Shown in pieces: positions 204 to 18,447 of a stretch of 47,842 nt of DNA (the first letter of the stretch is position 1; each line of letters starts with the position of its first letter). Both the position numbers and the translations under genes were made by a program. The notes under the pieces are model-generated. The model was given only the letters and a program-made list of their open reading frames with translations, searched no databases and had not been told where the DNA came from. Origin of the DNA: an uncultured Pelagibacteraceae bacterium (GTDB lineage Bacteria; Pseudomonadota; Alphaproteobacteria; Pelagibacterales; Pelagibacteraceae); contig CACORI010000005.1 in the NCBI GenBank assembly GCA_902629585.1, positions 1 to 47,842 on the forward strand, in the 5' to 3' direction.

Positions 204-722
204 TTAAAATTTAAAATCTCTAAAACGTAAATTAATTTTATCTTTTGGTGAAAGAATAGGTTTTTTAATATTCCAATCAATTTTCAGATCTTTATCATTC
301 CAAAGAACTCCTATTTCAGAATTCTTATCTCTATATTCAGTGCAACTATATATAACAATATTTTCATTTTCTAGGCCAACAAAACCGTGAATAAAACCTG
401 GTGGAACATAGATTGATTTTGAATTTTTTTGACTAATAATAGTTTTAAAATGTTTTCCAAAAGTTTTTGATTTTTTTCTACAATCAACCACTACATCTAA
501 TATTTTTCCTTTAACAACAGATATATACTTACCTTGTTGAAATTTTCTTTGCATATGCAAACCTCTTAGAACATTTTTTTTGGATTTAGATACAACCGTA
601 AATTTAAATTTTTTCTTAATAAGTTTCTCAATTAAAAGTTCTCTAAAATATCCTCTATTGTCATAAAAATTTTTTGAATTGCATAATAATAAATCTTTAA
701 ATTTTGTTCTGGTTATTTTCAT
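204..722 (-). CDS. rfbC: dTDP-4-dehydrorhamnose 3,5-epimerase
   Basis: RmlC-family cupin that epimerises dTDP-4-keto-6-deoxyglucose at C3 and C5 in cytoplasmic dTDP-L-rhamnose synthesis. Family signatures visible are RGLHMQ (usual RGLHYQ, catalytic His), VVDCRKKSKTFG, and YVPPGFIHGF in the second half, followed by LWNDKDLKIDW near the C-terminus. At 172 aa it is close to the usual length of about 180. It starts one base before the rfbA stop region (722/723), so it is translated directly after rfbA in an rfbB-rfbA-rfbC order. The fourth enzyme, RfbD reductase, is not in the window. Confidence 0.93.
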   Translation of the reverse strand: MKITRTKFKDLLLCNSKNFYDNRGYFRELLIEKLIKKKFKFTVVSKSKKNVLRGLHMQRKFQQGKYISVVKGKILDVVVDCRKKSKTFGKHFKTIISQKNSKSIYVPPGFIHGFVGLENENIVIYSCTEYRDKNSEIGVLWNDKDLKIDWNIKKPILSPKDKINLRFRDFKF

Positions 723-1589
723 TTATATAAGCTTAGCCAAGTATTTAGAATAATCACAGTTTCCATAAAATTTAATTGATTGTTTTAAATGTTTCTTATT
801 TATCCATTTGTTATTAAATGCTATCTCTTCAAGACAAGCGATCTTAAGTCCTTGTCGATTTTCAATTGCTGAAACAAATGACGTTGTTTTATAAAAATCA
901 TCCATAGAGCCAGTATCTAACCATGCGCCACCTCTACCAATTAAATCAGCTTTTAATTGATTCTTTGATTTGTAAAAATTTAATAAATCAACAATCTCTA
1001 ATTCTCCTCTCTTCGAAGGCTTAAGTTTTTTTGCGTACTTAACAACTTTATTATCAAAAAAATATAGCCCCGTAATTGCAAGGTCTGAAAAGAATTTTTT
1101 AGGTTTTTCTTTAATCTTTGTAATTTTATGATGATTATTTATTTTCGCAACTCCAAATAATTCTGGTTTCAAAACTTTATGCAAAACTACTTTAGCTCCT
1201 TTATTAAGTTTAGTATTATTTAACAGTAAACTAGATAAATTTTGTCCATAAAAAAAATTATCTCCTAAAATCATAGCAACATTTTCTTTTCCAATAAATT
1301 TTTCGCCTATAATAAATGCATCTGGTAGACCTCTTGGTTTAGATTGTTCTAAGTAAGTAATTTTAATCCCTAAATTGTTTCCATCAGGTAAAATTTTTTT
1401 ATATTGGTTTAGTTGACCTTTATTTACGATAATTAAAACATCTTTTATTTTTGACAACATTAGAATTGACAAAGGATAAAAAATCAGTGGTTTATCATAA
1501 ATTGGCAATAATTGTTTATTGACCGCCTTAGTCAAAGGACTCATTCTAGTCCCTTTTCCTCCTGCTAAAATAATTCCTTTTCTAATCAT
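723..1589 (-). CDS. rfbA: Glucose-1-phosphate thymidylyltransferase
   Basis: RmlA, first step of dTDP-sugar synthesis: glucose-1-phosphate plus dTTP gives dTDP-glucose. The N-terminal nucleotide-binding signature GIILAGGKGTRMSPLT is present, followed by KQLLPIYDKPLIFYPLS, and LGDNFFYG in the middle is the metal and nucleotide site typical of the family. The WLDTGS motif toward the C-terminus is also characteristic. Length (288 aa) matches the short RmlA class. Its ATG overlaps the rfbB stop as ATGA, which indicates translational coupling within the rfb operon. Confidence 0.96.
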   Translation of the reverse strand: MIRKGIILAGGKGTRMSPLTKAVNKQLLPIYDKPLIFYPLSILMLSKIKDVLIIVNKGQLNQYKKILPDGNNLGIKITYLEQSKPRGLPDAFIIGEKFIGKENVAMILGDNFFYGQNLSSLLLNNTKLNKGAKVVLHKVLKPELFGVAKINNHHKITKIKEKPKKFFSDLAITGLYFFDNKVVKYAKKLKPSKRGELEIVDLLNFYKSKNQLKADLIGRGGAWLDTGSMDDFYKTTSFVSAIENRQGLKIACLEEIAFNNKWINKKHLKQSIKFYGNCDYSKYLAKLI

Positions 1590-2599
1590 AACTTGCCTAA
1601 TCTCTCTATAATATCTTTTTTCGAAAGTGATTTATAATAAGATTTGTTTTTAAAATACCATTGAAGAGTCAGTTTTATTCCTTTATCAAAATTTGTACTT
1701 GGATACCACCCAAGTTTGTTTCTAATTTTGTTACTATTTAAAGCATATCTAATGTCATGGCCAGGACGATCTTTTACAAATCTTATTTTTACATTTTTTC
1801 CAAGTTTCATAAATTTCTTTGATCCCTGTAAAAGTTTTCTTGTTACTTGTAAGTTATTCAAATTTTTATTCGAGCCAATATTGTAAAATTCTCCTATCTT
1901 GCCTTTAAGAAAGATTTTAATTAATGCCTCACAATGATCTTTAACATAAATCCATTCCCTTGAATTAGTACCCTTCCCATAAATTGGTAAAAATTTATTA
2001 TTCATAATATTATAAATTAATTTTGGAATAAGTTTTTCAGGATGTTGTTTAGGACCATAATTGTTTGAACAATTAGTAACAATAGCAGGTAAATTATAAG
2101 TCCTTACATAAGAGCTTACCAAATGATCAGATGCAGCTTTACTCGCTGCATAAGGCGAGCTTGGTTGATAAGGATATTTTTCATGAGATCTACCTTTTAA
2201 AATATCACCAAATACTTCATCAGTAGAAATATGAATTAATTTAGATTTATGTTTTCGAGAAAAATATTTAAAATTTTCAAGTAGATTATAAACACCAACT
2301 ATATTGCTTTGAATAAAACTGTCAGGGTTATCGATCGATCTATCCACATGAGTTTCTGCAGCTAGATTAAATATTCCAATAGGTTTGTATTTGAATAATA
2401 TTTTTTTTATTTTTTTTTCTTTAATATCTAATTTTATAAATTTATAATTTTTAAATTTTTTAAATTCTTTCACATTGTAAAAATTTGATGAATATGTAGC
2501 TTTATCTAAATTTATTACATAAAAATTTTTTTTTAATAATAAATCTATCAAATTACTTCCAATAAATCCCAAACCCCCAGTGACTATGATTTTTTTCAT
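1586..2599 (-). CDS. rfbB: dTDP-glucose 4,6-dehydratase
   Basis: RmlB, an extended short-chain dehydrogenase converting dTDP-glucose to dTDP-4-keto-6-deoxyglucose with bound NAD. The Rossmann motif TGGLGFIGSN sits at residues 7-16, the catalytic T-D-E at 126-128 (STDEVFGD), and the YxxxK pair at Tyr150 and Lys154. NLAAETHVDRSI is a further family signature. Length 337 aa is normal. It is the first gene of the minus-strand rfb transcript; the 55-base gap to the divergent GT2 gene (2600-2654) must carry promoters for both directions. No convincing -35/-10 pair stands out there above the AT-rich background. Confidence 0.96.
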   Translation of the reverse strand: MKKIIVTGGLGFIGSNLIDLLLKKNFYVINLDKATYSSNFYNVKEFKKFKNYKFIKLDIKEKKIKKILFKYKPIGIFNLAAETHVDRSIDNPDSFIQSNIVGVYNLLENFKYFSRKHKSKLIHISTDEVFGDILKGRSHEKYPYQPSSPYAASKAASDHLVSSYVRTYNLPAIVTNCSNNYGPKQHPEKLIPKLIYNIMNNKFLPIYGKGTNSREWIYVKDHCEALIKIFLKGKIGEFYNIGSNKNLNNLQVTRKLLQGSKKFMKLGKNVKIRFVKDRPGHDIRYALNSNKIRNKLGWYPSTNFDKGIKLTLQWYFKNKSYYKSLSKKDIIERLGKL

Positions 2600-2654
2600 T
2601 ATTTTAATTTCTACATTACAAAAAAGTGTTAGTATAGATCAATATACAAGCATC

Positions 2655-3533
2655 ATGTCAATAAGTAGGCAAAATATTTCAGTTGTAATAGTTAGCTTTA
2701 AAAGCGATCAAGTTATTGAAAGATGCATTAATTCGATTGATGAAGAAATAGAAATTATAGTAATTGATAACTCAAATAGTGAAAAATTTAAAAAAAAAAT
2801 TGAAAATAAATATAAAAATGTTCGATGTATTTTGTCATCAGAAAATATTGGCATGGGAGCTGGTAACAATCTTGGAATTAAAAATGTAACAAAAGATTAC
2901 GCTTTTATATTAAATCCAGATGTAATTTTAGAAAGTGATTGTATTAACGAAATTTTAATCTCATGCTCAGAAATTAATTCTTTTGCAATTTTAGCTCCAA
3001 TATCAAGTGAAGAAAAATTTCCAAATTATAAATTAGAACAAAATTATGAATTTAGCTCTCTTAAACCTTTTAAGGTAAAAAGCGTTGATGGGTACGCAAT
3101 GCTTTTTAATCTTAAAAGATTAAAACAATTAAATGATTTTGATTTTTTTGATGAAAATTTTTTTTTATATCTTGAAAATGACGATTTGTGTGAGAGATTG
3201 AACAAGAGAGGTGAAAACATTTTTATTGTTCCAAAAGCTAAAATCAATCATCTTGGTGGAGAAGGTGTAAATTCTAAATATAAAGAGGAAATAGAATTTT
3301 CAAGAAACTGGCATTGGATGTGGTCAAAATTTTATTTTAATAAAAAACATTATGGTTACCTAAATGCTTATAAAAAAGTTTTTTTAAATTTGATATCAGC
3401 TAAATTGAAATTTCTATATTATTTAATCACATTTAATTCATATAAAAAAAAAATTTACAAAATGAGATTATCTGGACTTGTAAATTCAATGATTGGAAAA
3501 AAATCCTATTATAGACCAAAATTGGATGATTAA
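2655..3533 (+). CDS. Family 2 glycosyltransferase, rhamnosyltransferase-like
   Basis: GT-A fold glycosyltransferase. The protein opens with the GT2 pattern ISVVIVSFKSDQVIERCINS, then IIVIDNSNS, the SSENIGMGAGNNLGI segment, and LNPDVIL as the DxD-like element; FLYLENDDLCERL is the pattern seen in WbbL-type rhamnosyltransferases. A hydrophobic or amphipathic C-terminal stretch may contact the membrane. The start is set at the ATG at 2655 (292 aa): an in-frame ATG at 2580 would lie inside rfbB and add 25 residues unlike any GT2 N-terminus. Lying beside rfbBAC, it plausibly uses dTDP-rhamnose, but the acceptor is unknown. It ends in a 4-base convergent overlap with apt. Confidence 0.85.
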   Translation: MSISRQNISVVIVSFKSDQVIERCINSIDEEIEIIVIDNSNSEKFKKKIENKYKNVRCILSSENIGMGAGNNLGIKNVTKDYAFILNPDVILESDCINEILISCSEINSFAILAPISSEEKFPNYKLEQNYEFSSLKPFKVKSVDGYAMLFNLKRLKQLNDFDFFDENFFLYLENDDLCERLNKRGENIFIVPKAKINHLGGEGVNSKYKEEIEFSRNWHWMWSKFYFNKKHYGYLNAYKKVFLNLISAKLKFLYYLITFNSYKKKIYKMRLSGLVNSMIGKKSYYRPKLDD

Positions 3534-4057
3534 TGCCCTGGAAATTCGATGAGATTTTCAACTTTATAATTTTTTTTCAGAAGATTATCACAACCACCTA
3601 AATCAAACAGATTTATAACAAAAATAAAAGCTGCAACTTTACTTTTTGATATTTCTATAAGTTTTGCAGCAGCCTCAGCAGTACCTCCTGTTGCAACTAA
3701 ATCATCAATTACTAAAACTCTGTCATTTTCATCAAAGGAGTCTTTATGCACCTCAATTGTTGCAGTTCCATATTCTAATTCAAAATCAACTGAATGAACA
3801 TCAGCTGGTAGTTTATTTTTTTTTCTTAACATTATAAAAGGCTTATTTAAGATATAGGAAACTGCAGACGCAAATACAAATCCTCTAGACTCAATTGCTG
3901 CTATCTTATTAAAATCAAATTTTTTTGATTTTTCGACTATTTGATTTATTGTTTCAGCAAATGCTTTTTCCTCTTTAATTAACGTAGTGATATCTCTAAA
4001 TAAAATTCCTTTTTTTGGATAATCTGGGATAGATCTAATAAAGTCTTTTAAATTCAT
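3530..4057 (-). CDS. apt: Adenine phosphoribosyltransferase
   Basis: Converts adenine plus PRPP to AMP. The PRPP-binding signature VLVIDDLVATGGTA is at residues 114-127, and IESRGFVFA near 55-63 and the flexible catalytic loop LRKKNKLP at 77-84 are both typical of bacterial Apt. Length 175 aa is standard. It is divergent from mtnP with only 41 bases between start codons. This placement makes biochemical sense: MtnP releases free adenine from methylthioadenosine, which Apt would recapture. A TATAAT-like hexamer lies on the minus strand at 4071-4066, but without a good -35 it is weak. Confidence 0.95.
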   Translation of the reverse strand: MNLKDFIRSIPDYPKKGILFRDITTLIKEEKAFAETINQIVEKSKKFDFNKIAAIESRGFVFASAVSYILNKPFIMLRKKNKLPADVHSVDFELEYGTATIEVHKDSFDENDRVLVIDDLVATGGTAEAAAKLIEISKSKVAAFIFVINLFDLGGCDNLLKKNYKVENLIEFPGH

Positions 4058-4098
4058 AAGAGTAAATTATAAAAGTATAAATAAATTAATTTTTAAAC

Positions 4099-4971
4099 AT
4101 GACAATAAATAAATTAGCAATTATTGGTGGCAGTGGCCTTTATGATGTTGAAGACTTCAAAAATAGAGAATTATTAGATTTAACTACACCCTGGGGAAAA
4201 CCCTCAGATCAAATATTAAAAACAAACTACAATAATAAGGAAGTTTACTTCCTACCAAGACATGGCAGAGGTCATTTTGTTTCTCCTTCAAAAATAAATT
4301 TTAGAGCAAATATCGATGCTCTTAAACAATTAGGAGTAACAGACATTGTATCAGTATCAGCAGTTGGATCTCTAAAAGAAGATTTGTTTCCTGGAAAATT
4401 TGTAATTGTTGACCAATTTATAGATCGAACATTTGCAAGAAAAAAAACATTTTTTGATGATGAAATTGTTGCTCATGTTTCTATGGCACATCCAACATCA
4501 AATGGTCTTATGAATGCATGTGAGGAGGCAATAAAAAAAGAAAAAATTGATTATCAAAGAAATGGAACATACATTGTTATGGAAGGACCACAATTTTCTA
4601 CGTTAGCAGAGTCAAATCTTTATAGGTCTTGGAAAGCAGATGTTATTGGAATGACCAATATGCCAGAAGCAAAATTAGCAAGAGAGGCGGAAATAAGATA
4701 TGCTTCAGTATCAATGGTAACTGATTATGATTGTTGGCATCCTGATCATGAAAATGTTGATGTTCAACAAGTTATAAAGGTTTTATTAGGTAATGCTGCT
4801 AAAGCAAAAAATATGATTAAAAACTTAATAGAAAATTTTGAAAATCATATTGATCCAAATGATCCAACTAATAATTGTTTAGATGTAGCTATCATAACTG
4901 CTCCAGATAAGAGAACAAATAAAACTAAAGATAAATTAAATACAATAGCCGGCAGGGTTTTAAATAAATGA
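4099..4971 (+). CDS. mtnP: 5'-methylthioadenosine phosphorylase
   Basis: Phosphorolysis of MTA to adenine and 5-methylthioribose-1-phosphate in the cytoplasm. The N-terminal IIGGSGLYDVE phosphate loop, PRHGRGH, the MEGPQFST substrate segment, IGMTNMPEAKLAREAE, and TDYDCWH are all present. The Asp-rich DYDCW motif is the one associated with 6-aminopurine preference in MTA phosphorylases, rather than the Asn of inosine/guanosine enzymes. Length (290 aa) is normal. It is the first gene of a plus-strand run whose next members (4968, 5877, 6944, 7602) overlap or abut, ending in a polyamine-synthesis fusion that would itself produce MTA. Confidence 0.95.
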   Translation: MTINKLAIIGGSGLYDVEDFKNRELLDLTTPWGKPSDQILKTNYNNKEVYFLPRHGRGHFVSPSKINFRANIDALKQLGVTDIVSVSAVGSLKEDLFPGKFVIVDQFIDRTFARKKTFFDDEIVAHVSMAHPTSNGLMNACEEAIKKEKIDYQRNGTYIVMEGPQFSTLAESNLYRSWKADVIGMTNMPEAKLAREAEIRYASVSMVTDYDCWHPDHENVDVQQVIKVLLGNAAKAKNMIKNLIENFENHIDPNDPTNNCLDVAIITAPDKRTNKTKDKLNTIAGRVLNK

Positions 4972-5876
4972 AAAAACTTATAACAATATCAATTATCATT
5001 TTTTTTAGTACTAATGCTTTGGCTGATAAAATGACAAAGAGTGGATTTTTGAATAATAAAGTTAGCTATTTAAAAGAACAAAAAATAGATAATCCACAAA
5101 ATAAAATCCTATTAATTTATAATCATGGTCAAACTACTCATGATGGTCCTTCTAATGATTGTGCATGGAAAGGTGGAATGAATAATATTTCATCTTTAGT
5201 TGGAAAAAAAGTTAAAGATAAAGAGATTGTCGTTTATCTTTTTTGCACAGGTAAACTCAAAGGAGATGATTATAAAAGATTATGGAATAAAAAAAAATTT
5301 AAAGAGCCATATCAGGGCAAGCCAAAACTTGAAAAAAGATTAGATGCAAATTTAAAACTTATTGAGGATTTTACTACTCAGGGATTCAATAAAAAACAAA
5401 TATTTTTAACTGGACGATCTTGCGGTGGATGGATGACTATGATGTTGCTAAGCAGATATCAAGATATTGTCGCTGGTGGTATTTCTTTTGTACCTGAATG
5501 TTATGGTCGTTTAACAAAAGCTTACAAAGTTAAAAAAGTTGGAGTGGAGAGTGCTTTGAAAAAATTTAAAGATAAAGATGGTCCTGGTCCAGCCAATATG
5601 AGACAAATGCAAATAGATGAAATTAAAAAAAGCCCTAATTTACCTGTATTAGTTTTTACTCATCCTAAAGATCCATTTGGTGGATTAGTATCTGAATGGG
5701 TTGAAGAAGTTTCTGGTGTCGAAAGAATAGTTATTTCTAAGGATAACAAGGTTAATGGAAAAAGCTGTAGTGTATGGGGAAAACCAATTAAAAATTATCA
5801 TGATATAGACAGAGCAAATTGTTTCAAAGAATTTAATCCAAAAATATTGGATTTTATTGCTTCAAGAGTTGATTAA
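4968..5876 (+). CDS. Exported alpha/beta hydrolase of unknown substrate
   Basis: Residues 1-19 form a typical signal peptide (basic MKK, hydrophobic core, ALA cleavage site), so the protein is predicted to be periplasmic. A GxSxG nucleophile elbow GRSCGGW gives Ser151; Asp235 in THPKDPFGG and His278 in NYHDID are the likely remaining triad members. Several cysteines (65, 93, 152, 178, 267, 285) may form disulfides. The fold resembles dienelactone-hydrolase or esterase-like proteins, but I do not recognise a named family. It overlaps mtnP by 4 bases and abuts mtnA, so it is embedded in the MTA-salvage run although its predicted location is outside the cytoplasm. Its role there is unexplained. 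Confidence 0.75.
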   Translation: MKKLITISIIIFFSTNALADKMTKSGFLNNKVSYLKEQKIDNPQNKILLIYNHGQTTHDGPSNDCAWKGGMNNISSLVGKKVKDKEIVVYLFCTGKLKGDDYKRLWNKKKFKEPYQGKPKLEKRLDANLKLIEDFTTQGFNKKQIFLTGRSCGGWMTMMLLSRYQDIVAGGISFVPECYGRLTKAYKVKKVGVESALKKFKDKDGPGPANMRQMQIDEIKKSPNLPVLVFTHPKDPFGGLVSEWVEEVSGVERIVISKDNKVNGKSCSVWGKPIKNYHDIDRANCFKEFNPKILDFIASRVD

Positions 5877-6947
5877 ATGAAAATAGAAGGAAAAGAATAT
5901 CGTACGATTTGGTTTGATAACAATGTTGTAAAAATTATTGATCAAACGAAACTTCCACATCAATTTGTTATAAAAGATTTAAAAAATATTGAGGATGCAG
6001 TAAATGCAATTAAAGTAATGGAAGTAAGAGGCGCACCTTTAATTGGAGCGACAGCAGCTTATGGATTAGTTTTATCACTCTTAGAGAATAATGATCAATC
6101 ATTCTTAAAAAAATCAGCAGAAAGTTTGATTAATTCAAGACCAACAGCAATAAATTTAAAGTGGGCTGTTGATAGAATGATGAAAAAATTATCAGGTGTA
6201 AATAGTGATAAAATTTTAGAAATAGCTCTACGCGAAGCAAAAAACATATGTGAGGAAGATATTAAATTTTGTGAAAACATAGGATTAAATGGACTAAAAA
6301 TTATTGAAGAAATATATAATAAAAAAAAAGATACAGTAAATATTTTAACTCATTGTAATGCAGGTTGGCTAGCAACAATTAATTGGGGGACTGCAACTTC
6401 TCCAATTTACCATGCACACAAGAAAGGCATACCAGTTCATGTTTGGGCAGATGAGACTAGACCAAGAAATCAAGGTGCAAATCTTACTTCTTATGAATTA
6501 AATGAAGAGGGAATTAAGAACACAATCATTTCTGATAATACAGGTGGTATTTTAATGCAAAGAGGTGAAGTTGACATGTGTATAGTTGGAACAGACAGAA
6601 CTCTAGCTAATGGAGATGTTTGTAATAAAGTTGGAACTTATCTTAAAGCATTAGCAGCATATGATAATGATATTCCATTTTATGTAGCACTTCCAAGTTC
6701 AACAATTGATTGGAATATAAAAAACCATAAAGATATTCCGATTGAAGAAAGAAATTCACACGAATTATCACATATGGAAGGTATTGATGAAGAAGGAAAT
6801 ATAAAAAAAATACAAATATATCCAAAAAAAAGTAAAGCTATGAATTTAGCTTTTGATGTAACCCCATCAAAATATGTTACAGGATTAATTACCGAAAAGG
6901 GGATATGTGAAGCATCAGAAAAAGGACTAAAAGTATTATTCAAATGA
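5877..6947 (+). CDS. mtnA: Methylthioribose-1-phosphate isomerase
   Basis: Isomerises 5-methylthioribose-1-phosphate, the MtnP product, to 5-methylthioribulose-1-phosphate. Family motifs include VRGAPLIGATAAYG near residues 50-63, the catalytic Cys160 in THCNAGWLAT and catalytic Asp240 in VGTDRTLANGD; both positions match the residue numbers known for the Bacillus enzyme. The ADETRPRNQGA segment (191-201) is also characteristic and separates it from the related eIF2B subunits. Length 356 aa is normal. The ATG follows the previous stop codon with no spacer, and the stop overlaps the aldolase start by 4 bases. Confidence 0.96.
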   Translation: MKIEGKEYRTIWFDNNVVKIIDQTKLPHQFVIKDLKNIEDAVNAIKVMEVRGAPLIGATAAYGLVLSLLENNDQSFLKKSAESLINSRPTAINLKWAVDRMMKKLSGVNSDKILEIALREAKNICEEDIKFCENIGLNGLKIIEEIYNKKKDTVNILTHCNAGWLATINWGTATSPIYHAHKKGIPVHVWADETRPRNQGANLTSYELNEEGIKNTIISDNTGGILMQRGEVDMCIVGTDRTLANGDVCNKVGTYLKALAAYDNDIPFYVALPSSTIDWNIKNHKDIPIEERNSHELSHMEGIDEEGNIKKIQIYPKKSKAMNLAFDVTPSKYVTGLITEKGICEASEKGLKVLFK

Positions 6948-7600
6948 AGAATTTAGACCAAAGAAAGCAAATTATTGAATATTCATTAAAATTAAATTCT
7001 ACAAATCTTTCACCTCTCAGGTCAGGTAATATATCATTGAGAGGAGTAGAGGATGATAAAGAGGGATACTTAATTACTCCGTCAGGAAAAAAATATGAAA
7101 CACTTAAACCTGAAGATATTGTTTTTATGGGTTTAAATGAAGATGAAGAAAAAAATGACTCTATAAATAAGCCCTCTTCTGAATGGAGATTTCATCGAGA
7201 TATTTATACAAATAAAAATGAAGCACAGGCTATTGTCCATGCTCATTCTCCACACGCCACAGCTGTATCTTCACATGGAAAACCCATTCCACCGTTTCAT
7301 TATATGATTGCTCTTGCAGGAGGAGATGACATTAAATGTGCCGATTACGCTACTTTTGGAACAAAAGAATTATCTAAAAATGTAATTAAAGCTTTGGAAA
7401 ATAGAACTGCTTGTTTAATGTCTAATCACGGCCAGGTTGCTTTTGGAAAAAATTTAGACGAAGCATTTGAACTTGCACAAGAGATAGAAAATATTTGTCA
7501 TCAATACACTATTGCTCTAAAGTTAGGCCAACCTAAGATTCTTTCATTTGAAGAAATGAAAAAAGTTTTAGATAAGGCTAAGAATTATAAAAAAGGGTAA
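6944..7600 (+). CDS. Class II aldolase (fuculose-1-phosphate aldolase family), probable methylthioribulose-phosphate aldolase
   Basis: Zinc-dependent aldolase of the FucA/AraD fold. Zinc ligands and acid map exactly onto L-fuculose-1-phosphate aldolase spacing: Glu80 in SSEWRFH, His99 and His101 in VHAHSPH, His162 in SNHGQV. PPFHYMIALAGGDD and CADYATFGTKELS are strongly FucA-like. Length (218 aa) fits. Placed directly after mtnA, the expected substrate is 5-methylthioribulose-1-phosphate, split to dihydroxyacetone phosphate and a methylthio-aldehyde, as in the 'DHAP shunt' described for Rhodospirillum rubrum. MtnB dehydratase, the alternative in the aerobic methionine salvage pathway, shares the fold, but no mtnC/D genes follow. 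Substrate is inferred from context. Confidence 0.85.
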   Translation: MKNLDQRKQIIEYSLKLNSTNLSPLRSGNISLRGVEDDKEGYLITPSGKKYETLKPEDIVFMGLNEDEEKNDSINKPSSEWRFHRDIYTNKNEAQAIVHAHSPHATAVSSHGKPIPPFHYMIALAGGDDIKCADYATFGTKELSKNVIKALENRTACLMSNHGQVAFGKNLDEAFELAQEIENICHQYTIALKLGQPKILSFEEMKKVLDKAKNYKKG

Positions 7601-7601
7601 G

Positions 7602-8642
7602 ATGATTAAAGTTGGGGAGCATATTACTTTAGATATAATTGGAACTACGAGGGAATATGATCCTTCAGTTTTTGAGAAAGTAATTAAAGAAATAGCCAAA
7701 GTTGCAAATGTTACAATTTTGAATATTTCTAAATATAAATTTGAACCTCAAGGCTTTACAATTTTAGCTTTATTGGCTGAGAGCCATATTAGTTTTCATA
7801 CGTTTCCTGAAAAAGGAATTATAAGCTTTGACTTTTTTACTTGTGGAAAAATTAGTCCTTCTGTTGCAATTGATATTATCCAAAGAGAATTTGAACATAA
7901 AAGGATAGTTAAGAAAGAATTTAATAGAGATACTAAATCTTTGTATCATGACATTTATAGTTCTCCAGGTTTGCAAAAATCATATGTCGTGAATGATGTA
8001 TTAGAGGATTTTAAATCTAAAGTTGGTCAGCACATAGAAATTTTAGATTTAGAACAATTCGGAAAATCATTGTTCATAGATGGCGAGATACAAGTAGCCA
8101 CTTCTGATGAACACTTGTATAGCTCAACTTTTGTTGGAGCTGGGTTGAAATTGAATAAAGCAAATGATAAAGCGGCAATCATCGGTGGCGGTGATGGTGG
8201 AGTAGCTAGAGAGTGTATTTTTAAAAAATTTAATTTTATTGATTGGTATGAGCTTGATCATGAGGTGGTTGAAGTATGTAGTAAGCATTTAGGGAATATT
8301 GGAAATAAAGCTACAGAAAAAAATTCTGTAAAATGTGTATGGGGAGATGCTTTTGAAAGTATAAAATCTGTAAGTGATGATACTTATGACCACATATTTG
8401 TTGACTTAAATGATGATCAATTTTGTATTAATCTAGCTGCAAAAAATATGGATTCATTAGTAAGAATTCTTAAACCTAAAGGAGTTATTACTACTCAAGT
8501 TGGCAGCCAAGACAAAAAACCTCTTCAAGTTGAAAATTGGCTTAATGTTTTTAATCATTATTTTGGAAATACCAAATTATCCAGAGTTTATATACCTAGT
8601 TTTGACTGTTCTTGGAATTTTTCTTCTTCAATAAATCATTAA
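7602..8642 (+). CDS. SpeD-SpeE fusion: S-adenosylmethionine decarboxylase domain plus spermidine/spermine synthase domain
   Basis: Residues about 1-115 are a bacterial AdoMet decarboxylase (SpeD) domain: LLAESHISFHTFPE contains the Glu60-Ser61 self-cleavage site that would give the pyruvoyl group, with His66 and Cys81 (FFTCG) at the conserved catalytic positions. Residues about 120-346 are an aminopropyltransferase: IIGGGDGGVARE at 193-204, Glu217 for AdoMet ribose, GDAF at 248-251, and VDLND with catalytic Asp268. If cleaved, the pyruvoyl would lie at the N-terminus of a chain that still carries the synthase. Human spermine synthase has the same order with an inactive SpeD-like domain; here the decarboxylase residues are intact. 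The ATG lies one base after the aldolase stop. Confidence 0.9.
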   Translation: MIKVGEHITLDIIGTTREYDPSVFEKVIKEIAKVANVTILNISKYKFEPQGFTILALLAESHISFHTFPEKGIISFDFFTCGKISPSVAIDIIQREFEHKRIVKKEFNRDTKSLYHDIYSSPGLQKSYVVNDVLEDFKSKVGQHIEILDLEQFGKSLFIDGEIQVATSDEHLYSSTFVGAGLKLNKANDKAAIIGGGDGGVARECIFKKFNFIDWYELDHEVVEVCSKHLGNIGNKATEKNSVKCVWGDAFESIKSVSDDTYDHIFVDLNDDQFCINLAAKNMDSLVRILKPKGVITTQVGSQDKKPLQVENWLNVFNHYFGNTKLSRVYIPSFDCSWNFSSSINH

Positions 8643-8703: not shown

Positions 8704-9531
8704 ATGAGTATATTTAAAAAAACATTTTTTTCAGTTTTACTTTCTCTATTGTTAATAGGAAATGTTAATGCTGATAAAATTAAAATTGGAACAGAGGGCG
8801 CTTATCCTCCATGGAACTCAAAAACCGAAGCTGGTAAGTTAATTGGATTTGAAGTTGAATTAGCTTATACTTTATGTCGTTATATTGGACGACAATGTGA
8901 AATAGTTGAGCAAGATTGGGATGGTATGATACCAGCTTTAATCATGAGAAAGTTTGACGCGATAATGGCAGGAATGTCAATTACTGCAGAAAGACAAAAA
9001 GCTATAAACTTTTCACAAGGATATGCAGATGAAGTAGCATCACTCGCAGTGATGAAAGGTTCAAGCCTTGAAGGAATGGACACACCTGCAGGTATAAACT
9101 TAACAAAACCTAATGCGGCTGCAAAAAAAGCTCTTAAAACTCTTACCGGGGCTTTAGCAGGCAAAACAGTTTGTGTTCAAACAGCAACTATTCACCAAAA
9201 CTTTTTAGATTCAGGTGATGTAGGAAAGGTAAATGTAAGAACTTACAAAACACAAGATGAAGTAAATCTAGATTTAGCATCTGGGAGATGTGATGCTGCA
9301 TTAGCTGCTGCCGTTGCATTCAGCGATTATGCAGAAAAATCTGGCAAACCTGTTGTTTTAGTTGGACCAACTTTTTCAGGAGGTGCATTTGGTAATGGTG
9401 TTGGAGTAGGTATTAGAAAAGATGATACTGAGCTTTTAAAAGCATTTAATAAAGCAATTGATAAAGCGAGAAAGAACGGAGATATTAGTAGAATAGCTAC
9501 TAAGTGGTTCGGTTTTGACGCTTCTATGTAA
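8704..9531 (+). CDS. Periplasmic amino-acid-binding protein of an ABC transporter
   Basis: Type II (family 3) extracellular solute-binding protein for polar amino acids. Residues 1-23 are a signal peptide ending in NVNA. The mature part begins DKIKIGTEGAYPPWN, the standard family opening, followed by GFEVELAYTLCRYIG, WDGMIPAL, and MSITAERQKAINFS. Length (275 aa) is typical of HisJ/ArgT/OccT proteins for basic or opine-like amino acids; the exact ligand cannot be read. It precedes two permease genes at 9576 and 10268, with a perfect hairpin between it and the first permease. Two alanine-rich central stretches are unusual but within family variation. Confidence 0.9.
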   Translation: MSIFKKTFFSVLLSLLLIGNVNADKIKIGTEGAYPPWNSKTEAGKLIGFEVELAYTLCRYIGRQCEIVEQDWDGMIPALIMRKFDAIMAGMSITAERQKAINFSQGYADEVASLAVMKGSSLEGMDTPAGINLTKPNAAAKKALKTLTGALAGKTVCVQTATIHQNFLDSGDVGKVNVRTYKTQDEVNLDLASGRCDAALAAAVAFSDYAEKSGKPVVLVGPTFSGGAFGNGVGVGIRKDDTELLKAFNKAIDKARKNGDISRIATKWFGFDASM

Positions 9532-9543
9532 TTAATTTTAGAT

Positions 9544-9570
9544 TTGGCGACTATAATGTATAGTCGCCAA
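9544..9570 (+). terminator. Perfect 12-bp hairpin between binding-protein and permease genes
   Basis: The arms TTGGCGACTATA (9544-9555) and TATAGTCGCCAA (9559-9570) are exact reverse complements around a 3-base loop, followed by TCTTT. It sits 12 bases after the binding-protein stop codon and 5 bases before the permease start codon. In ABC operons such a structure commonly stabilises the 3' end of the binding-protein message or partially terminates, giving more binding protein than permease. The short T run argues for partial termination or RNA stabilisation rather than full termination. Confidence 0.75.
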
Positions 9571-9575
9571 TCTTT

Positions 9576-10268
9576 ATGGAACTTCTAGCATTTGGAGATA
9601 CTGGTTGGGGTGATGAATTATTTTACGCAACCCTAATGACAATAGCTGTTTCTATAACAGCAATGATAATTGGTTTTTGTTTTGCAGCAATTTTTACTCC
9701 ACTTAAACTTTCAAAGAGTAAATTTTTTAATTTAATAGCGAATTCTTACACAACAGTAATTAGAGGTGTGCCAGAATTATTGGTTATTTACCTCTTCTTT
9801 TTTGGTGGAAGTGGTGCAGTAATGTACGTTGCTTCAATATTTGGATATAATGAATATATTGAAATAAATGCATTTATCACGGGCGCCTTTGCAATTGGCA
9901 TAATTTCTGGAGCTTACTCAACAGAGGTTTTTAGAGGCGCAGTTCAGTCAATTGATAAAGGCCAGTTTGAGGCAGCGAAGGTTTTAGGTTTAAGTAAATT
10001 TGCCCAATTTTTTAAAATAATTCTTCCCCAAGTTTTACGACTAGCTATTCCAAATTTAAGTAATGTTTGGCAAATAACTTTAAAAGATACATCTTTAATT
10101 TCTGTAACAGGTTTGGTTGAAATTATGAGACAATCTTATATTGCAGCAGGTTCCACTAGAGATCCATTATTTTTTTACTCTTTTGCAGCAGTTTTATATT
10201 TGTTGCTGACATTTTTAAGTATGAAATTAATTAATAAATTAGAAATAAGATACAGCAGAGGTTATTGA
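9576..10268 (+). CDS. Amino-acid ABC transporter permease (HisQ-like)
   Basis: Membrane subunit of a polar amino-acid uptake system. The region NSYTTVIRGVPELLVIYLFF is the family opening after the first transmembrane helix, and the EAA loop (EAAKVLGLSKFAQFFKIILP, about residues 130-150) is the docking site for the ATPase. About five hydrophobic helices are visible. The length of 230 aa is normal. The paired permease gene overlaps its stop codon by one base. No ATP-binding subunit gene occurs beside the pair. Confidence 0.9.
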   Translation: MELLAFGDTGWGDELFYATLMTIAVSITAMIIGFCFAAIFTPLKLSKSKFFNLIANSYTTVIRGVPELLVIYLFFFGGSGAVMYVASIFGYNEYIEINAFITGAFAIGIISGAYSTEVFRGAVQSIDKGQFEAAKVLGLSKFAQFFKIILPQVLRLAIPNLSNVWQITLKDTSLISVTGLVEIMRQSYIAAGSTRDPLFFYSFAAVLYLLLTFLSMKLINKLEIRYSRGY

Positions 10269-10939
10269 TGGATTTTGAATTAATGTTTACAAGCTTTCCT
10301 AAGTTGTTAAGTGCAACTTTAATTACCTTAAAACTTTTATCAGTTTCTTTAATTATTGGATTATTTATTGGTCTTTTATTTGCAATTTTAAGACTAAACA
10401 AAAATATTTTTGTTAATAAATTTGCGTATGGCTATTCATACATATTTAGAGGTACACCACTATTAGTTCAAATATTTATTATTTATTTTGGTTTAGGTCA
10501 AATCGAATATTTAAGATCAACTTTTCTCTGGGTAATATTAAAGGAACCTTATTGGTGTGCAATTATTGCTTTTGCTTTAAATACTGGTGCTTATACTTCT
10601 GAGATATTGAGATCAGCATTTCAAACAATTAAATTAGGCATGATAGAAGCAGGTAAAAGTTTAGGAATTTCTAATAAAATAATATTTTATAAAATTCAAA
10701 TACCTATAGCAATTAGACAATCACTTCCAGCTTATGGAAATGAGATAATATTAATGATGAAAGGGACGTCATTAGCTAGCACAGTAACCTTAATGGATTT
10801 AACAGGTGTTGCAAAATATATTATTTCAACAACCTTTAAGCCTATTGAGGTATTTATTGTTGCGGGTGGAATTTATCTATTTATGACCTTTTGCATTCAT
10901 AACATAATAAAATTCCTTGAAAAAAAATATTCATTTTGA
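10268..10939 (+). CDS. Amino-acid ABC transporter permease (HisM-like)
   Basis: Second membrane subunit, paired with the gene at 9576. It shows the family features YSYIFRGTPLLVQIFIIYFG and an EAA loop (EAGKSLGISNKIIFYKIQIP) that would contact the ATPase. I place the start at the ATG at 10268, whose A is the last base of the preceding TGA (TGATG), giving 223 aa; a TTG one codon earlier is possible. The expected third gene, an ATPase, is absent: the next gene at 11000 is a glycan-type protein. The subunit must come from elsewhere in the genome. Confidence 0.9.
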   Translation: MDFELMFTSFPKLLSATLITLKLLSVSLIIGLFIGLLFAILRLNKNIFVNKFAYGYSYIFRGTPLLVQIFIIYFGLGQIEYLRSTFLWVILKEPYWCAIIAFALNTGAYTSEILRSAFQTIKLGMIEAGKSLGISNKIIFYKIQIPIAIRQSLPAYGNEIILMMKGTSLASTVTLMDLTGVAKYIISTTFKPIEVFIVAGGIYLFMTFCIHNIIKFLEKKYSF

Positions 10940-10999: not shown

Positions 11000-12199
11000 A
11001 TGTCCAATATTAAAACAAAAGCCATATTTTATGCCTATTCCAACAATGCATTAGATCATTTAGCTCCCTATGCGGTTTTGTGTCATGAAAAAAAAATAGA
11101 ATGTGTAATTATTTATGGTGAAGATTTTATAAAGCTAAAAGTTGTTCCAAAAAACAATATAGTTCAAATATTCAAAGATTTAAATATTTCATCATACAAT
11201 TATCCTAAATTTGAAAAAAATGGATTTATTGAGAAACTTTATTCTTATATTTGGTATTTAGCCAATGTGATTGAAAAAATAAATTTTATACCAATTTTTT
11301 TTAAAAATAAAGCTAAAGGACTTTGTAATAAATTTTTTCAAATTTTAAATGGTGATTTACTGGGTAAAAATACTGCAGAAAAATTGTTAGAAAATACTGA
11401 TAAAGTTTTAGTTTTTACAGATAGTTGGAGTCAAAACAAAAAAATACAAAATGGATTTTTATCTTATGTAAAAGGTAAGGCTACAATTATATCTACTAAT
11501 CATACTCCTTGGCATTTTCATCGTTCACAACCTATCAAGCCATCATCTTTAAATGAGGATGTTGCATTAGTTTCTAATAAGTGGGAAGCAGATGCTAAAA
11601 AATTTATAAAAAAAAGAGAAGTTATAGGAACTCTTCGTTATTCAAAAAAATGGTTAAGTTTACTTGACAAATATAATAAAGAAAAAATTATTAAAGAAGA
11701 TAATAAAAAAAATATTCTTGTTCTTGCTCACAGCGAAACGCATACTAGTGATTGGAAAAGAATGATAAATTTACTTCATAAACTTGTTGTAAAAAAAGAT
11801 TTTAATCTCTCTATTCTCCCGCATGTTAGAGGAATGGCAAATATGAAACCACCAAAAGAGCTAAAAAAAGTTTGGGACAATAGCTCTTCCTTAGACGCAG
11901 CTGTAAAAAAATCTGATATAGTAATTTTTTGGACAACTTCAGCAATATTTGAAGCTGTGGTAAGAAATAAAAAGATATTTTATTTATCTTTTCTAAGTAA
12001 GCTTGATGGAAATTATATCTGGCAAAAAGATGCACCTACAAATATTATAATAAAAGATGAAATAGAATTATTTAGTGAAATTGCTAAATATGAAATAAAA
12101 GATTTACCAAATAATATTTGTTTTCAAAAAATAATTTGGCCAGAGGGAGATCCCTGGTCCAATGCATCCAATTTTTTAGATAGATTTTTAACTAAATAG
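11000..12199 (+). CDS. Putative GT-B-like glycan protein, function unknown
   Basis: 399 aa, no signal peptide. I do not recognise a named family. Visible features suggest a two-domain Rossmann (GT-B or polysaccharide-type) protein: an N-terminal segment with AIFYAYSNNALDHLAPY, a central KVLVFTDSWSQ and ISTNHTPWHFHRS, and a C-terminal half with ILVLAHSETHTSDWKR, LSILPHVRG, and SDIVIFWTTSAIFEAVVRNK, the last resembling the 'suspect a stored or exported chain, find the source' helix of CDP-glycerol or polysialate-type transferases. It lies in an envelope-glycan neighbourhood and ends one base before the convergent DUF6165 gene. Confidence 0.5.
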   Translation: MSNIKTKAIFYAYSNNALDHLAPYAVLCHEKKIECVIIYGEDFIKLKVVPKNNIVQIFKDLNISSYNYPKFEKNGFIEKLYSYIWYLANVIEKINFIPIFFKNKAKGLCNKFFQILNGDLLGKNTAEKLLENTDKVLVFTDSWSQNKKIQNGFLSYVKGKATIISTNHTPWHFHRSQPIKPSSLNEDVALVSNKWEADAKKFIKKREVIGTLRYSKKWLSLLDKYNKEKIIKEDNKKNILVLAHSETHTSDWKRMINLLHKLVVKKDFNLSILPHVRGMANMKPPKELKKVWDNSSSLDAAVKKSDIVIFWTTSAIFEAVVRNKKIFYLSFLSKLDGNYIWQKDAPTNIIIKDEIELFSEIAKYEIKDLPNNICFQKIIWPEGDPWSNASNFLDRFLTK

Positions 12200-12200
12200 A

Positions 12201-12590
12201 TTAGTAATTTGTATATTCTTTAATCTCTTTAATTTTAGAACCAGTATAATCATTTATTTCCAATTTAATTTTAGCTCTATCGTCATTTAAAAAATGTACA
12301 TCCCTTGAAAGTTTGATAAATTTGGCACCAAAATTTTTTTCATTTTCACACTGTCGCTTACCATCCTCTATGTCCCATAATTTAGCATTTATTTCTTTTA
12401 GAGTTTTAAAGAGTTTGTTGAGTTTATCATCATTCTTAACATTATTTTTAAGCTGCTTTTTTAAAACAGAATATTCGTCTGAGATAAATTTTAATTTGTT
12501 AATATCTTTTATCTTTTCTAGTTTTATTTCTAAAATTGAAATTTTATCTAAAAGTTCACCAATTGAAATTTCGACTATAATTTTATTCAT
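12201..12590 (-). CDS. DUF6165 family protein
   Basis: Small (129 aa), highly charged, probably helical cytoplasmic protein. It opens with VEISIGELLDKISILEIKLE and contains LWDIEDGKRQCE, FIKLSRDVHFLNDDRAKIK and a closing GSKIKEIKEY; this pattern is what I recall for DUF6165, a family often found beside glycosyltransferases. Function is unknown. It is convergent with the 11000 gene (1-base gap) and divergent from the GT9 gene (30-base gap). The opposite-strand open frame at 12313-12636 is a shadow: its predicted product is only low-complexity hydrophobic sequence. Confidence 0.65.
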   Translation of the reverse strand: MNKIIVEISIGELLDKISILEIKLEKIKDINKLKFISDEYSVLKKQLKNNVKNDDKLNKLFKTLKEINAKLWDIEDGKRQCENEKNFGAKFIKLSRDVHFLNDDRAKIKLEINDYTGSKIKEIKEYTNY

Positions 12591-12620
12591 AAAACAAAAT
12601 ACTGTGTTATCTTATAATAT

Positions 12621-13559
12621 ATGTCTAATATATTAATTATTAAACATGGTTCCTTAGGAGATATAGCGCAAGCTAGTGGGGCAATTCAAGATATATTTGA
12701 AAACCATAAAGATGATCAAATTTTTTTTCTAACAACAAAACCATATATTGAACTATTTAAAAAAAATCCTTTTATCAATGGAGTAATTTTAGACAAAAGA
12801 CTGTCTAGATTCAATCTACTATATTTATATTCACTGATGAGAACAATTAAAAAATACAATTTTACAAAAATTTTTGATCTTCAAAACTCTTCAAGAACAT
12901 TATTCTATAAAAAAATTTTATTTCCAAATGCAAAGTATGATATTTGGTCGAGTTCTTTAACAACTTTGCCCGCAAACAAGACAAAAGAAGATTATGATAA
13001 AATATCAGTTTTAGAAAGATTTGACCATCAGTTAAAGTTTTCAGGCTTAAAAACAATTAATACAATGATACCAAACTTTGATTGGGCTATTTCAGATATT
13101 AGTAAAATTAAAAACCAATATGATTTAAAAAATTATATAATATTGTTTCCATTTTGCTCACCTCATCTCGAATTAAAAAAATGGCCTTATTATAATGAAC
13201 TGATTAAAAAAATATTAAATAAATTTGAAAATAAATATAAGATTATTACTGTACCTGGACCAAATGAAATAAGTCTTTCAAATGATATTGATGCAGTCAC
13301 CATTTTAGACAATGGAGAAGCTTTAGATATTTCTCAACTAACTGCTCTTATAAAGGACAGTGCTTTTGTAGTAGCAAATGACACAGGTCCAGCTCATATA
13401 ACAGCCCATGTAGGAGCTAAGGGCTTAACTTTATTTGGAAAACATACCACACCTTATAAAGTTAGTATTGAAACAAAAAATTTTAAAGCAATTCATGTAA
13501 ACGACCTAAAAGAGTTAAGTTCGGATAAAGTATTTGAAAAACTTTGTAAGTTAATCTAA
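12621..13559 (+). CDS. Family 9 glycosyltransferase (heptosyltransferase-like)
   Basis: GT9 proteins add heptose or related sugars to the LPS core or other envelope glycans. The N-terminus ILIIKHGSLGDIAQASGAI is the diagnostic GT9 acceptor-side loop (usual form LGDV at this position), and VVANDTGPAHITAHVG near residue 252 is the matching donor-site motif. The 312 aa length is typical. It is divergent from the DUF6165 gene. A TATAAT hexamer at 12613-12618 is too close to the ATG at 12621 to be its -10 box. Donor sugar cannot be read. Confidence 0.88.
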   Translation: MSNILIIKHGSLGDIAQASGAIQDIFENHKDDQIFFLTTKPYIELFKKNPFINGVILDKRLSRFNLLYLYSLMRTIKKYNFTKIFDLQNSSRTLFYKKILFPNAKYDIWSSSLTTLPANKTKEDYDKISVLERFDHQLKFSGLKTINTMIPNFDWAISDISKIKNQYDLKNYIILFPFCSPHLELKKWPYYNELIKKILNKFENKYKIITVPGPNEISLSNDIDAVTILDNGEALDISQLTALIKDSAFVVANDTGPAHITAHVGAKGLTLFGKHTTPYKVSIETKNFKAIHVNDLKELSSDKVFEKLCKLI

Positions 13560-13593
13560 TTCGTAGTAAGAAATAAAACTATAAATTTGTTTT

Positions 13594-15904: not shown

Positions 15905-15909
15905 ATGCT

Positions 15910-16734
15910 TTATTTTAATTTAATTAATTTTGGTTTTTTACAAATTATTTTCTTATCTAAATAAGCGTCCACTATCTTATCTTTATAAAGAGTATAAATG
16001 ATATCCAAGAATTCTGGTTTCCAGTCTTTTTTATAAAATAATTTTCCCGAATTTATTAATGACAAATCCATCTTAGGTTTTATTTTTAATTTAAGTCGCT
16101 TTTCTATTTCCTTAATAACTTTAGGTAAATCTTTATGTGCTGATAATAATGCTTTACATGAAACATCATGAATGCCATCTCCTCTTTTAAGTGTTGGTAC
16201 ATTGTTATGCAAAATTTCTCCAGTATCTACATACTTATCTATTATATGATAAGTGGTTCCTGCCATTGTTGGCTCTAAAAAATAAAATGGCCAAAACATA
16301 GTAATTAATCCTTTATAGTGGGGAATTAATCCCAAATGAAGATTTATTGTATTTTTAGGAAGATGTTTCAAAAGTTGTTCTTTAATGATTGGAGCACCAC
16401 TAATAAAACAAGAGTCAAATTTTGTTTTTTTTAAATAATTTACAATTTTTTTACTATTTAATTCATTCGCACTAGCTATTTCTATTTTTTTTGGAAATTT
16501 TTCGATAATTTTACTTTTAAAATTAAAATATTTTTTTTCTGCAATTAATCTTTTGTTAAAATGTATTTTCCAGAGTTTTTTTAAATGTTTTGATAGTTTT
16601 TTATCACTTTTAGGTACTAATTTTTCTCTTTTAAATATAATTAATCCTTTAATATTTATATTTTTTTGAGAAGATAGTTTCTCCAGAAAAGCTATATTTC
16701 TCGGATGGTTGCCAATCATTACTAAAATATTCAT
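15910..16734 (-). CDS. Formyltransferase-fold protein, probable sugar N-formyltransferase
   Basis: Belongs to the methionyl-tRNA/GART formyltransferase fold. The catalytic triad is visible: Asn131 and His133 in INLHLGLIPHYKG, and Asp170 in YVDTGEIL. It lacks the C-terminal tRNA-binding domain of Fmt, and lies among sugar genes, so a nucleotide-sugar or glycan amine is a better guess for the acceptor than tRNA. The first half (residues 1-100) is highly basic and diverged. It is convergent with the radical SAM gene (5-base gap). N10-formyl-tetrahydrofolate would be the donor by family knowledge. Confidence 0.8.
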   Translation of the reverse strand: MNILVMIGNHPRNIAFLEKLSSQKNINIKGLIIFKREKLVPKSDKKLSKHLKKLWKIHFNKRLIAEKKYFNFKSKIIEKFPKKIEIASANELNSKKIVNYLKKTKFDSCFISGAPIIKEQLLKHLPKNTINLHLGLIPHYKGLITMFWPFYFLEPTMAGTTYHIIDKYVDTGEILHNNVPTLKRGDGIHDVSCKALLSAHKDLPKVIKEIEKRLKLKIKPKMDLSLINSGKLFYKKDWKPEFLDIIYTLYKDKIVDAYLDKKIICKKPKLIKLK

Positions 16735-16793
16735 GCTAGTGTTTTTTAAATCGATTGAGTTATTTTAAAATATTCAATTAAACAATAGAGTGT

Positions 16794-18427: not shown

Positions 18428-18447
18428 AATGTAATAATATATAAATT

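Follow-up and report, generated by a model that had tools for sequence, protein, structure and literature searches.

The closest described systems to the locus reported here are variants of the dihydroxyacetone phosphate (DHAP) shunt. In Rhodopseudomonas palustris and Rhodospirillum rubrum the shunt consists of MtnP, MtnA and Ald2, and in air R. palustris is reported to form 2-(methylthio)ethanol and methanethiol through it (PMC5893883). Extraintestinal Escherichia coli is reported to use MtnK, MtnA and Ald2 (PMC10986504), entering by a nucleosidase and then a kinase, and the DrdK-DrdI-DrdA system of Bacillus thuringiensis is likewise entered by a kinase (PMC6079011). Here, we analyzed a stretch of 47,842 nucleotides from an uncultured Pelagibacteraceae (SAR11) bacterium (contig CACORI010000005.1 of assembly GCA_902629585.1, positions 1 to 47,842), the whole of which is referred to as the window. 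At 3530-8642 it carries a compact block of genes that would both produce S-methyl-5'-thioadenosine (MTA), by way of a SpeD-SpeE fusion, and dispose of it.

Like the shunt described for R. palustris and R. rubrum, the window encodes a phosphorylase, an isomerase and a class II aldolase; the two are also alike in that neither mtnB nor mtnD was found and that the window's own genome encodes a MetY-type sulfhydrylase. Unlike that shunt as reported (PMC5893883), the window genes form one tight array together with a SpeD-SpeE fusion. An MtnA-type isomerase and a FucA-like aldolase are shared with the E. coli and B. thuringiensis systems, whereas entry in the window would be by the phosphorylase rather than by a kinase. 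Universal methionine salvage (mtnB, C, D, E) has mtnP and mtnA in common with the window, but not mtnB or mtnD, which were not found here. The SAR11 SpeE has been described as multidomain by gene fusion and broad in substrate range (Green et al. 2011, as cited in PMC8437039); in the latter source a figure legend mentions MTA as a by-product, and no "mtn" string was found in the main text. Our literature search found no description of a SAR11 MTA or DHAP-shunt locus, nor of the aldolase/dehydrogenase fusion discussed below in MTA turnover, although North et al. 2020 and Green et al. 2011 may mention them. The locus is of a known pathway type, and what is notable is that the maker and the disposer of MTA lie in one gene array. 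The exchange of endings among relatives is the variant that deserves most attention, above all the fused oxidative version.

According to the open reading frame coordinates, the block comprises apt on the minus strand followed on the plus strand by mtnP, a hydrolase gene, mtnA, a class II aldolase gene and speD-speE, with successive spacings of 41, -4, 0, -4 and 1 bp and the five plus-strand genes tightly packed. A preliminary description of the window had named these six genes, and its account of the gene content stands, with apt, MtnP, MtnA and SpeD all above curated cut-offs. The apt gene (3530..4057, minus strand; adenine phosphoribosyltransferase, 175 aa; NF002634, 209.0 bits, cut-off 170) diverges from the array and forms the left border of a gene slot, whose right border is speD-speE. 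Both promoters presumably lie in the 41-bp divergent intergenic stretch at 4058..4098 between apt and mtnP. A search of the whole window at Rfam gathering thresholds gave no RNA family match, and riboswitch control of the block was set aside on that ground. Within the slot lie mtnP (4099..4971, plus strand; S-methyl-5'-thioadenosine phosphorylase, 290 aa; NF006492, 443.8 bits, cut-off 437; TIGR01694, 308.1 bits, cut-off 274.85), mtnA (5877..6947, plus strand; S-methyl-5-thioribose-1-phosphate isomerase, 356 aa; TIGR00512, 418.4 bits, cut-off 279) and, overlapping mtnA by 4 bp, the gene for a class II aldolase of 218 aa, a proposed 5-methylthioribulose-1-phosphate aldolase (6944..7600, plus strand; PF00596, 178.9 bits, cut-off 22.2).

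The speD-speE gene (7602..8642, plus strand; 346 aa) joins a pyruvoyl S-adenosylmethionine (AdoMet) decarboxylase domain to an aminopropyltransferase (TIGR03330, 99.2 bits, cut-off 75.65; PF02675, 95.8 bits; PF01564, 86.3 bits, cut-off 22.9), the SpeE part reaching 97.2 bits, short of the 249.55-bit cut-off of the full-length speE equivalog. All 10 aligned copies share residues S61, H66 and C81 of the SpeD part, and we take S61 to be the self-cleavage serine and H66 and C81 its partners, as in Thermotoga SpeD. Some SpeD relatives have shifted to decarboxylation of ornithine or arginine, and such a shift may be compatible with these residues.

Gene content, order, linkage, swaps and conserved residues are direct observations in what follows. 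We consider a DHAP shunt of the phosphorylase type, acting on MTA, to be the likely reading of the window block, and the best explanation of the block would be a housekeeping module for spermidine synthesis and for disposal of the by-product; we infer all activities and products. The SpeD domain would decarboxylate AdoMet, and the SpeE domain would move the aminopropyl group onto a diamine and release MTA. MtnP would then split MTA by phosphorolysis into adenine, which Apt would return to adenosine monophosphate, and 5-methylthioribose-1-phosphate, which MtnA would isomerize to 5-methylthioribulose-1-phosphate. The class II aldolase would cleave the latter so that DHAP is recovered and 2-(methylthio)acetaldehyde remains, an aldehyde that in the window's own genome would be handled by unlinked enzymes. 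By carbon balance, three carbons go to DHAP, and two carbons plus the whole methylthio group go to the aldehyde. The preliminary description had called this a C-S split, which is apt insofar as carbon and sulfur part into different products; the bond that the aldolase would cut is nevertheless a C-C bond, so that the C-S bond would survive in 2-(methylthio)acetaldehyde.

The source genome (G000; 1,068,427 bases in 39 contigs, the window being contig 5) is only 84.61% complete, and gene absences therefore rest on a family sample of 197 genomes, of which 77 have a completeness of 90% or more. Across this sample, class II aldolases matching PF00596 occur in 156 genomes and mtnA in 150; 158 have the AdoMet decarboxylase domain. 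Linkage was counted from listed matches covering 148 of the 150 mtnA genomes and 150 of the 158 genomes with the SpeD domain, with PF00596 matches down to about E 1e-20. Wherever both mtnA and speDE were listed, they lay on one contig no more than 13 kb apart (135 of 135 genomes), which is a linkage far beyond chance. Sixty stretches were mapped in addition to the window; two (L144 and L145) are other loci, leaving 59, and since the stretches were picked to cover the different states of the locus, state proportions among them are not frequencies. The usual gene order is apt (minus strand), mtnP, mtnA, aldolase, speDE. The apt gene is present in 56 of the 59 loci, the other three (L108, L117 and L126) being short stretches at contig ends; 51 loci have mtnP and 53 have mtnA, the gaps being six loci of the third state described below, which lack both, and stretches at contig ends. 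Two named uncultured Pelagibacteraceae genomes (L317 and L329) carry orthologues of the window genes at 78-91% identity.

The constancy of the MTA-producing partner also bears on whether the main substrate of the module is 5'-deoxyadenosine from radical AdoMet enzymes, yielding adenine, DHAP and acetaldehyde, with MTA as a side substrate. The known DHAP shunt is reported to be bifunctional (PMC10986504), and DrdA of B. thuringiensis, a relative of the window aldolase, acts in 5-deoxyribose salvage (PMC6079011). The constant partner of the module, however, is the SpeD-SpeE fusion (the same 135 of 135 genomes), in one of the swapped modules it is a nucleosidase-like gene that adjoins this fusion, and the 5'-deoxyadenosine output of aerobic E. 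coli is called low in the source consulted (PMC10986504). We regard such a primary role as unlikely.

The ending of the module between apt and speD-speE takes three forms. State A is the single-domain aldolase of the window. In 104 of the 197 genomes it lies near mtnA or speDE, where "near" means any listed PF00596 match within 10.5 kb, including partial or interrupted ones (G013, G047, G093, G167); it shares the mtnA strand in all 101 comparable cases. In state B the aldolase is replaced by a 677-aa aldolase/short-chain dehydrogenase fusion (cluster c17) on the opposite strand. This fusion was found in 48 of the 197 genomes, near mtnA or speDE in all 48 and opposite in strand to mtnA in 46 of 46. 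Only one genome, G151, has A and B together among the listed matches; the listed mtnA genomes divide into one with both, 100 with A only, 45 with B only and two with neither, a mutual exclusion with a Fisher p of 2e-34, uncorrected for relatedness. State C, found in six loci, has a nucleosidase-like gene of 174-178 aa between apt and speDE without mtnP, mtnA or aldolase. Its product resembles solved nucleosidases for MTA and S-adenosylhomocysteine (3bl6, E 1e-10), and DMEA and SD motifs, to which we presume a catalytic meaning, are conserved in the alignment; the NCBIfam scores of the state-C gene are under cut-off (PRK05634, 90.4 and 92.5 against 129; TIGR01704, 45.0 and 40.1 against 73.8). 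A nucleosidase-like match in G010 was excluded from state C (47% identity, another contig, 8% contamination). A separate observation concerns G005 (L246, 7530-8618), a 99% complete genome in which a nucleosidase-like gene lies beside apt and no SpeD domain was found.

Comparison of close relatives indicates that swaps of the ending are recent and repeated. G152 (state A) and G166 (state B) have 18 regional genes in common, apt, mtnP, mtnA and speDE among them, with identities of 80-99%, and at the same place, between the same two neighbours, the former carries a single-domain aldolase and the latter the fusion. All 59 loci were placed in a SpeD-SpeE tree, in which G151 (A and B) and G047 (with a broken aldolase) were left unlabelled. 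At least 10 changes among the three states are required over the 57 labelled loci, against a shuffled mean of 22.8; counting G151 as a state of its own raises the number to 11. Strongly supported branches alone force at least six changes for A, four for B and three for C. Because the choice of loci favours diversity, the 10 changes are not a rate. A decayed locus was also seen in G048 (L330, ~8900-10050), where apt, mtnP and speDE are kept, no mtnA match was found and only 43 residues of aldolase similarity are left before speDE. The preliminary description had proposed the shunt and suggested a check of neighbour conservation in related genomes. The tie of the MtnP, MtnA and aldolase set to speDE, seen in the window's own genome and across much of the family, agrees with that proposal, whereas the picture of one fixed pathway does not hold, the aldolase being replaced elsewhere by the fusion, or mtnP, mtnA and aldolase together by the nucleosidase-like gene. 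In state C the module would be reduced to a nucleosidase that merely frees adenine, and in the sister lineages with state B a dehydrogenase of the type using nicotinamide adenine dinucleotide (NAD) would oxidize the aldehyde at once to (methylthio)acetate.

The state-B protein scores 885.8 bits against the NF006192 model (cut-off 639), named "bifunctional aldolase/short-chain dehydrogenase"; its N-terminal part is a class II aldolase and its C-terminal part a short-chain dehydrogenase. The aldolase motifs GGGNTS, SVET, DHxH and HG and the dehydrogenase residues S578, Y591 and K595 are invariant among 14 aligned fusions. A predicted structure of the L329 fusion has a mean pLDDT (predicted local distance difference test score) of 83.2. 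Among the structural matches listed, in which one domain dominates, residues 1-228 of the model match a Thermoplasma class II aldolase domain (3m4r; Z 30.4, 1.9 Å over 212 residues) and residues ~424-677 match short-chain dehydrogenases (Z ~29). Both domains of the fusion appear to be intact by alignment and model. The same two-domain architecture is found in RhaEW, a rhamnulose-1-phosphate aldolase/lactaldehyde dehydrogenase, which is reported to cleave rhamnulose-1-phosphate and to oxidize the resulting aldehyde with NAD+, showing no activity with NADH (PMC3870299). Unlike RhaEW, whose orthologues are said in that source always to occur in rha loci, the state-B fusion is under the cut-off of the RhaD_aldol-ADH model for RhaEW (TIGR02632; 445.4 against 567.75 bits) and sits in mtn loci in SAR11. 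By analogy with RhaEW, the fusion would yield DHAP and (methylthio)acetate from 5-methylthioribulose-1-phosphate.

Outside SAR11, the fusion was searched for in 210 alphaproteobacterial genomes, three of which are SAR11 and lack it. It is present in 36 of them, and in 24 of these it lies beside mtnA or mtnP (19 of the 30 loci mapped, G252 and G274 at no more than 1.7 kb, and G342, G382 and G391 by coordinates). In contrast to SAR11, an mtnA-adjacent fusion is on the mtnA strand in 20 of 20 cases. The mtnA gene occurs in 34 of the 36 genomes with the fusion and in 62 of the 174 without it (p 1.6e-11, with genome size uncontrolled), and mtnD is over cut-off in seven of the 36. Among named fusion loci, of which the best 80 of at least 593 were retained, 32 have mtnA or mtnP within the fetched stretch, two of them SAR11; Ferrovibrio, Magnetovibrio and a Longimicrobiales genome are among the mtn-linked examples. 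In Mesorhizobium sp. ES1-4 (L304), a 5-methylthioribose kinase gene (513.9 bits, cut-off 275) and mtnA lie ~4-5 kb past the fusion. Tentatively, and with slightly more doubt than belief, we propose that the NF006192 fusion is an unrecognised alphaproteobacterial MTA-recycling enzyme that gains NADH, and that SAR11 lineages repeatedly swap three endings which lead to different sulfur products. These would be a methylthio-aldehyde or alcohol in state A, (methylthio)acetate in state B and methylthioribose in state C.

Several observations weigh against this interpretation of the block and of the fusion. As for the locus, up to 32 of the 197 genomes have no block gene listed, including G019, G158, G164 and G184, which are 94-96% complete; 32 is an upper bound, as G039, for example, has matches beyond those listed. 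The block is thus not universal. The G047 aldolase is interrupted by one TAA, and in G100, where mtnP and mtnA are present, the 6.5 kb past mtnA revealed neither an aldolase nor the fusion nor speDE. As for the fusion, no mtn gene adjoins it in 12 of the 36 alphaproteobacteria that carry it, and in G226 its neighbours are an FGGY sugar kinase and a MalK-type ATP-binding cassette (ABC) ATPase, no mtnA match being found in that genome. As for the window aldolase, it reaches no NCBIfam cut-off among the families listed (25 of 30), and among solved structures it scores nearer to FucA than to DrdA.

This last point bears on the alternative that the window aldolase is a FucA-like sugar-catabolic enzyme for an imported sugar, placed beside mtnA by history only. 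Fuculose-phosphate aldolases are indeed its top NCBIfam and PDB matches, the best NCBIfam match being PRK06833 ("L-fuculose-phosphate aldolase"). The nearest solved structures are L-fuculose-1-phosphate aldolases such as 1fua (161 bits), which we take to be the E. coli enzyme, followed by DrdA (6btd, 136.6 bits), and sugar-nucleotide and glycosyltransferase genes lie upstream of the block. On the other hand, every FucA cut-off is missed (196.6 against 264 for PRK06833, then 192.8 against 264 and 173.7 against 400.25 bits). Moreover, the aldolase keeps to the mtnA strand in every comparable case, and in relatives a different aldolase takes its place in the slot; we therefore hold a separate sugar role to be very improbable. 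Residues E80, H99, H101 and H162 of the aldolase are invariant in 10 of 10 aligned SAR11 copies, and from FucA we presume them to be metal-binding or catalytic. In DrdA, residue Glu76 has been reported (PMC6079011).

A comparable doubt attaches to the state-B fusion, which could be a rhamnulose- or other sugar-phosphate enzyme that landed in a gene-exchange hot spot and has nothing to do with MTA. RhaEW, its tested relative, acts on rhamnulose-1-phosphate (PMC3870299), the slot accepts passenger genes, and there is the sugar kinase beside the G226 homologue. Such a chance arrival nevertheless fits poorly with the placement of all 48 SAR11 copies at the locus, 47 of the 48 genomes being without a single-domain aldolase there. 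It fits poorly, too, with the scores below the RhaD_aldol-ADH cut-off and above that of NF006192, with the position beside mtnA or mtnP in two thirds (24 of 36) of the other alphaproteobacteria and with the nearby mtnK and mtnA in Mesorhizobium; a role unrelated to MTA seems rather unlikely. The view of NF006192 as an MTA-only family was unsupported, since no fewer than 25 changes of the mtn-linked label are required on a FastTree tree of 128 fusion proteins and G226 has its sugar-kinase context. Given these other neighbours, MTA turnover is probably a main role of the fusion family, though not its sole one. Also near the G226 homologue (L239, 6690-13605, from a 1.4-Mb alphaproteobacterium) are genes of iron-alcohol-dehydrogenase and glycerol-3-phosphate dehydrogenase type. 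In Reyranella soli (L257, 4481-8040), the fusion follows phosphoribosyltransferase-family and alcohol-dehydrogenase/quinone-reductase-like genes, and the stretch has no mtnA match.

To return to the shunt in the window, the preliminary description had noted the absence of further methionine-salvage genes and called for a genome search. As far as mtnB and mtnD are concerned, that absence was borne out in the window's own, 84.61% complete genome. The only PF00596 match there is the window aldolase, so that no separate mtnB was found, and the acireductone dioxygenase family of mtnD (PF03079) gave no match; mtnC, mtnE and mtnK were not searched for there. Across the family, PF03079 is over cut-off in none of 197 genomes, with three weak partial matches, while the same search found it in two of 14 control genomes. 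A hidden mtnB among the relatives' other class II aldolases was also considered and rejected for the two outside-locus aldolases classified (L144 and L145), which match other aldolase families and for which the MtnB model scores 48.8 of the required 137.05 bits or is unlisted. That the window aldolase is itself an MtnB-like dehydratase, with a degenerate methionine salvage continuing through unrecognised enzymes, is hardly credible: MtnB is of the same superfamily and its model (TIGR03328) does match part of the protein, but at 67.7 bits, half of the cut-off, and mtnD is missing as just described.

Concern over the fate of the methylthio sulfur had been raised in the preliminary description as well, and it can be softened. 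A MetY-type sulfhydrylase in the window's own genome scores 570.1 bits (cut-off 495.1; four weaker matches under cut-off were not counted), and a MetY-type enzyme is reported to be able to convert shunt-derived methanethiol to methionine in R. palustris (PMC5893883). By this analogy, the sulfur from MTA need not be lost. PF00148, the nitrogenase-type family, is over cut-off in none of the 197 genomes, weak partial matches below cut-off in 117 genomes having been disregarded. The enzymes of the anaerobic ethylene branch of the DHAP shunt are nitrogenase-like, so that this branch is not expected here, and a nitrogenase-like methylthio-alkane route was rejected for the same reason.

The remaining gene of the block encodes an exported alpha/beta-hydrolase-like protein of 302 aa (4968..5876, plus strand), its signal peptide being judged by eye. 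No Pfam family matches it at E 0.001, and its resemblance to polyhydroxybutyrate depolymerases/esterases is weak (24.1 bits, cut-off 150). The hydrolase occurs in just seven of the 59 mapped loci, with varying neighbours and with one copy only 25% identical; it is therefore a passenger, and we rejected it as a member of the pathway and of the self-contained block in which it had been included. Further passengers include a crotonase, a small multidrug-resistance pump and an aromatic-catabolism-like island in G152 and G166. The island lies between mtnA and the aldolase slot (L111, 7604-16577, in G152; L112 in G166) and contains FAA-hydrolase, dioxygenase-like, FAD-binding monooxygenase-type, sulfatase and TRAP transporter families. 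The small multidrug-resistance gene (cluster c28, 112 aa; L146, L149, L125) follows mtnA in eight mapped loci, and one copy is weakly similar, under cut-off, to the spermidine exporter subunit MdtI.

The locus is often flanked by polysaccharide genes to its left, and to its right by a transporter or an amidase. In the window, rhamnose-type sugar-nucleotide and glycosyltransferase genes occupy 204-3533, and an amino-acid ABC transporter (binding protein and two permeases; 8704..10939, plus strand; TIGR01096, 231.4 bits, cut-off 256.35; NF008337 and NF008336 under cut-off) follows the block. This transporter is a common right neighbour, present or replaced among the loci, and stands outside the proposed pathway. 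For several genes at 11000-19600, the other mapped loci have no counterpart. The flanking genes suggest that the block is an island within a variable region.

Viral relatives were found for the fusion at the right border. Eight IMG/VR viral contigs (L335-L342) carry a SAR11-type SpeD-SpeE fusion with ~60% identity to that of the window (e.g., L337, 4758-5801), and three copies tested reach up to 69% identity to the SAR11 genome G006. In L335, L337, L338 and L340 the gene lies between a gene of 779-782 aa (cut in L340) and one of 367 aa, the neighbours in L337 being the large and small subunits of ribonucleotide reductase. Among 50,697 phage records, 134 match SpeD-SpeE, none over 80% of the fusion, and the 30 listed cover the SpeD part only. 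Phage carriage of the aldolase was dismissed, the seven pattern matches being unrelated.

SAR11 bacteria are among the most abundant in the ocean and need reduced organic sulfur. If the proposed pathway is correct, each spermidine made would send a methylthio group to a small organosulfur compound, bypassing classical methionine salvage. The identity of that compound would be set by the ending held in one gene slot, which would amount to a lineage-specific source of marine organosulfur, and SAR11 populations would be sources of differing small organosulfur compounds. It would also provide a substrate for NF006192, a large family that is annotated but unassigned, and the swaps between close relatives would constitute a natural experiment on the handling of a toxic by-product in streamlined genomes.

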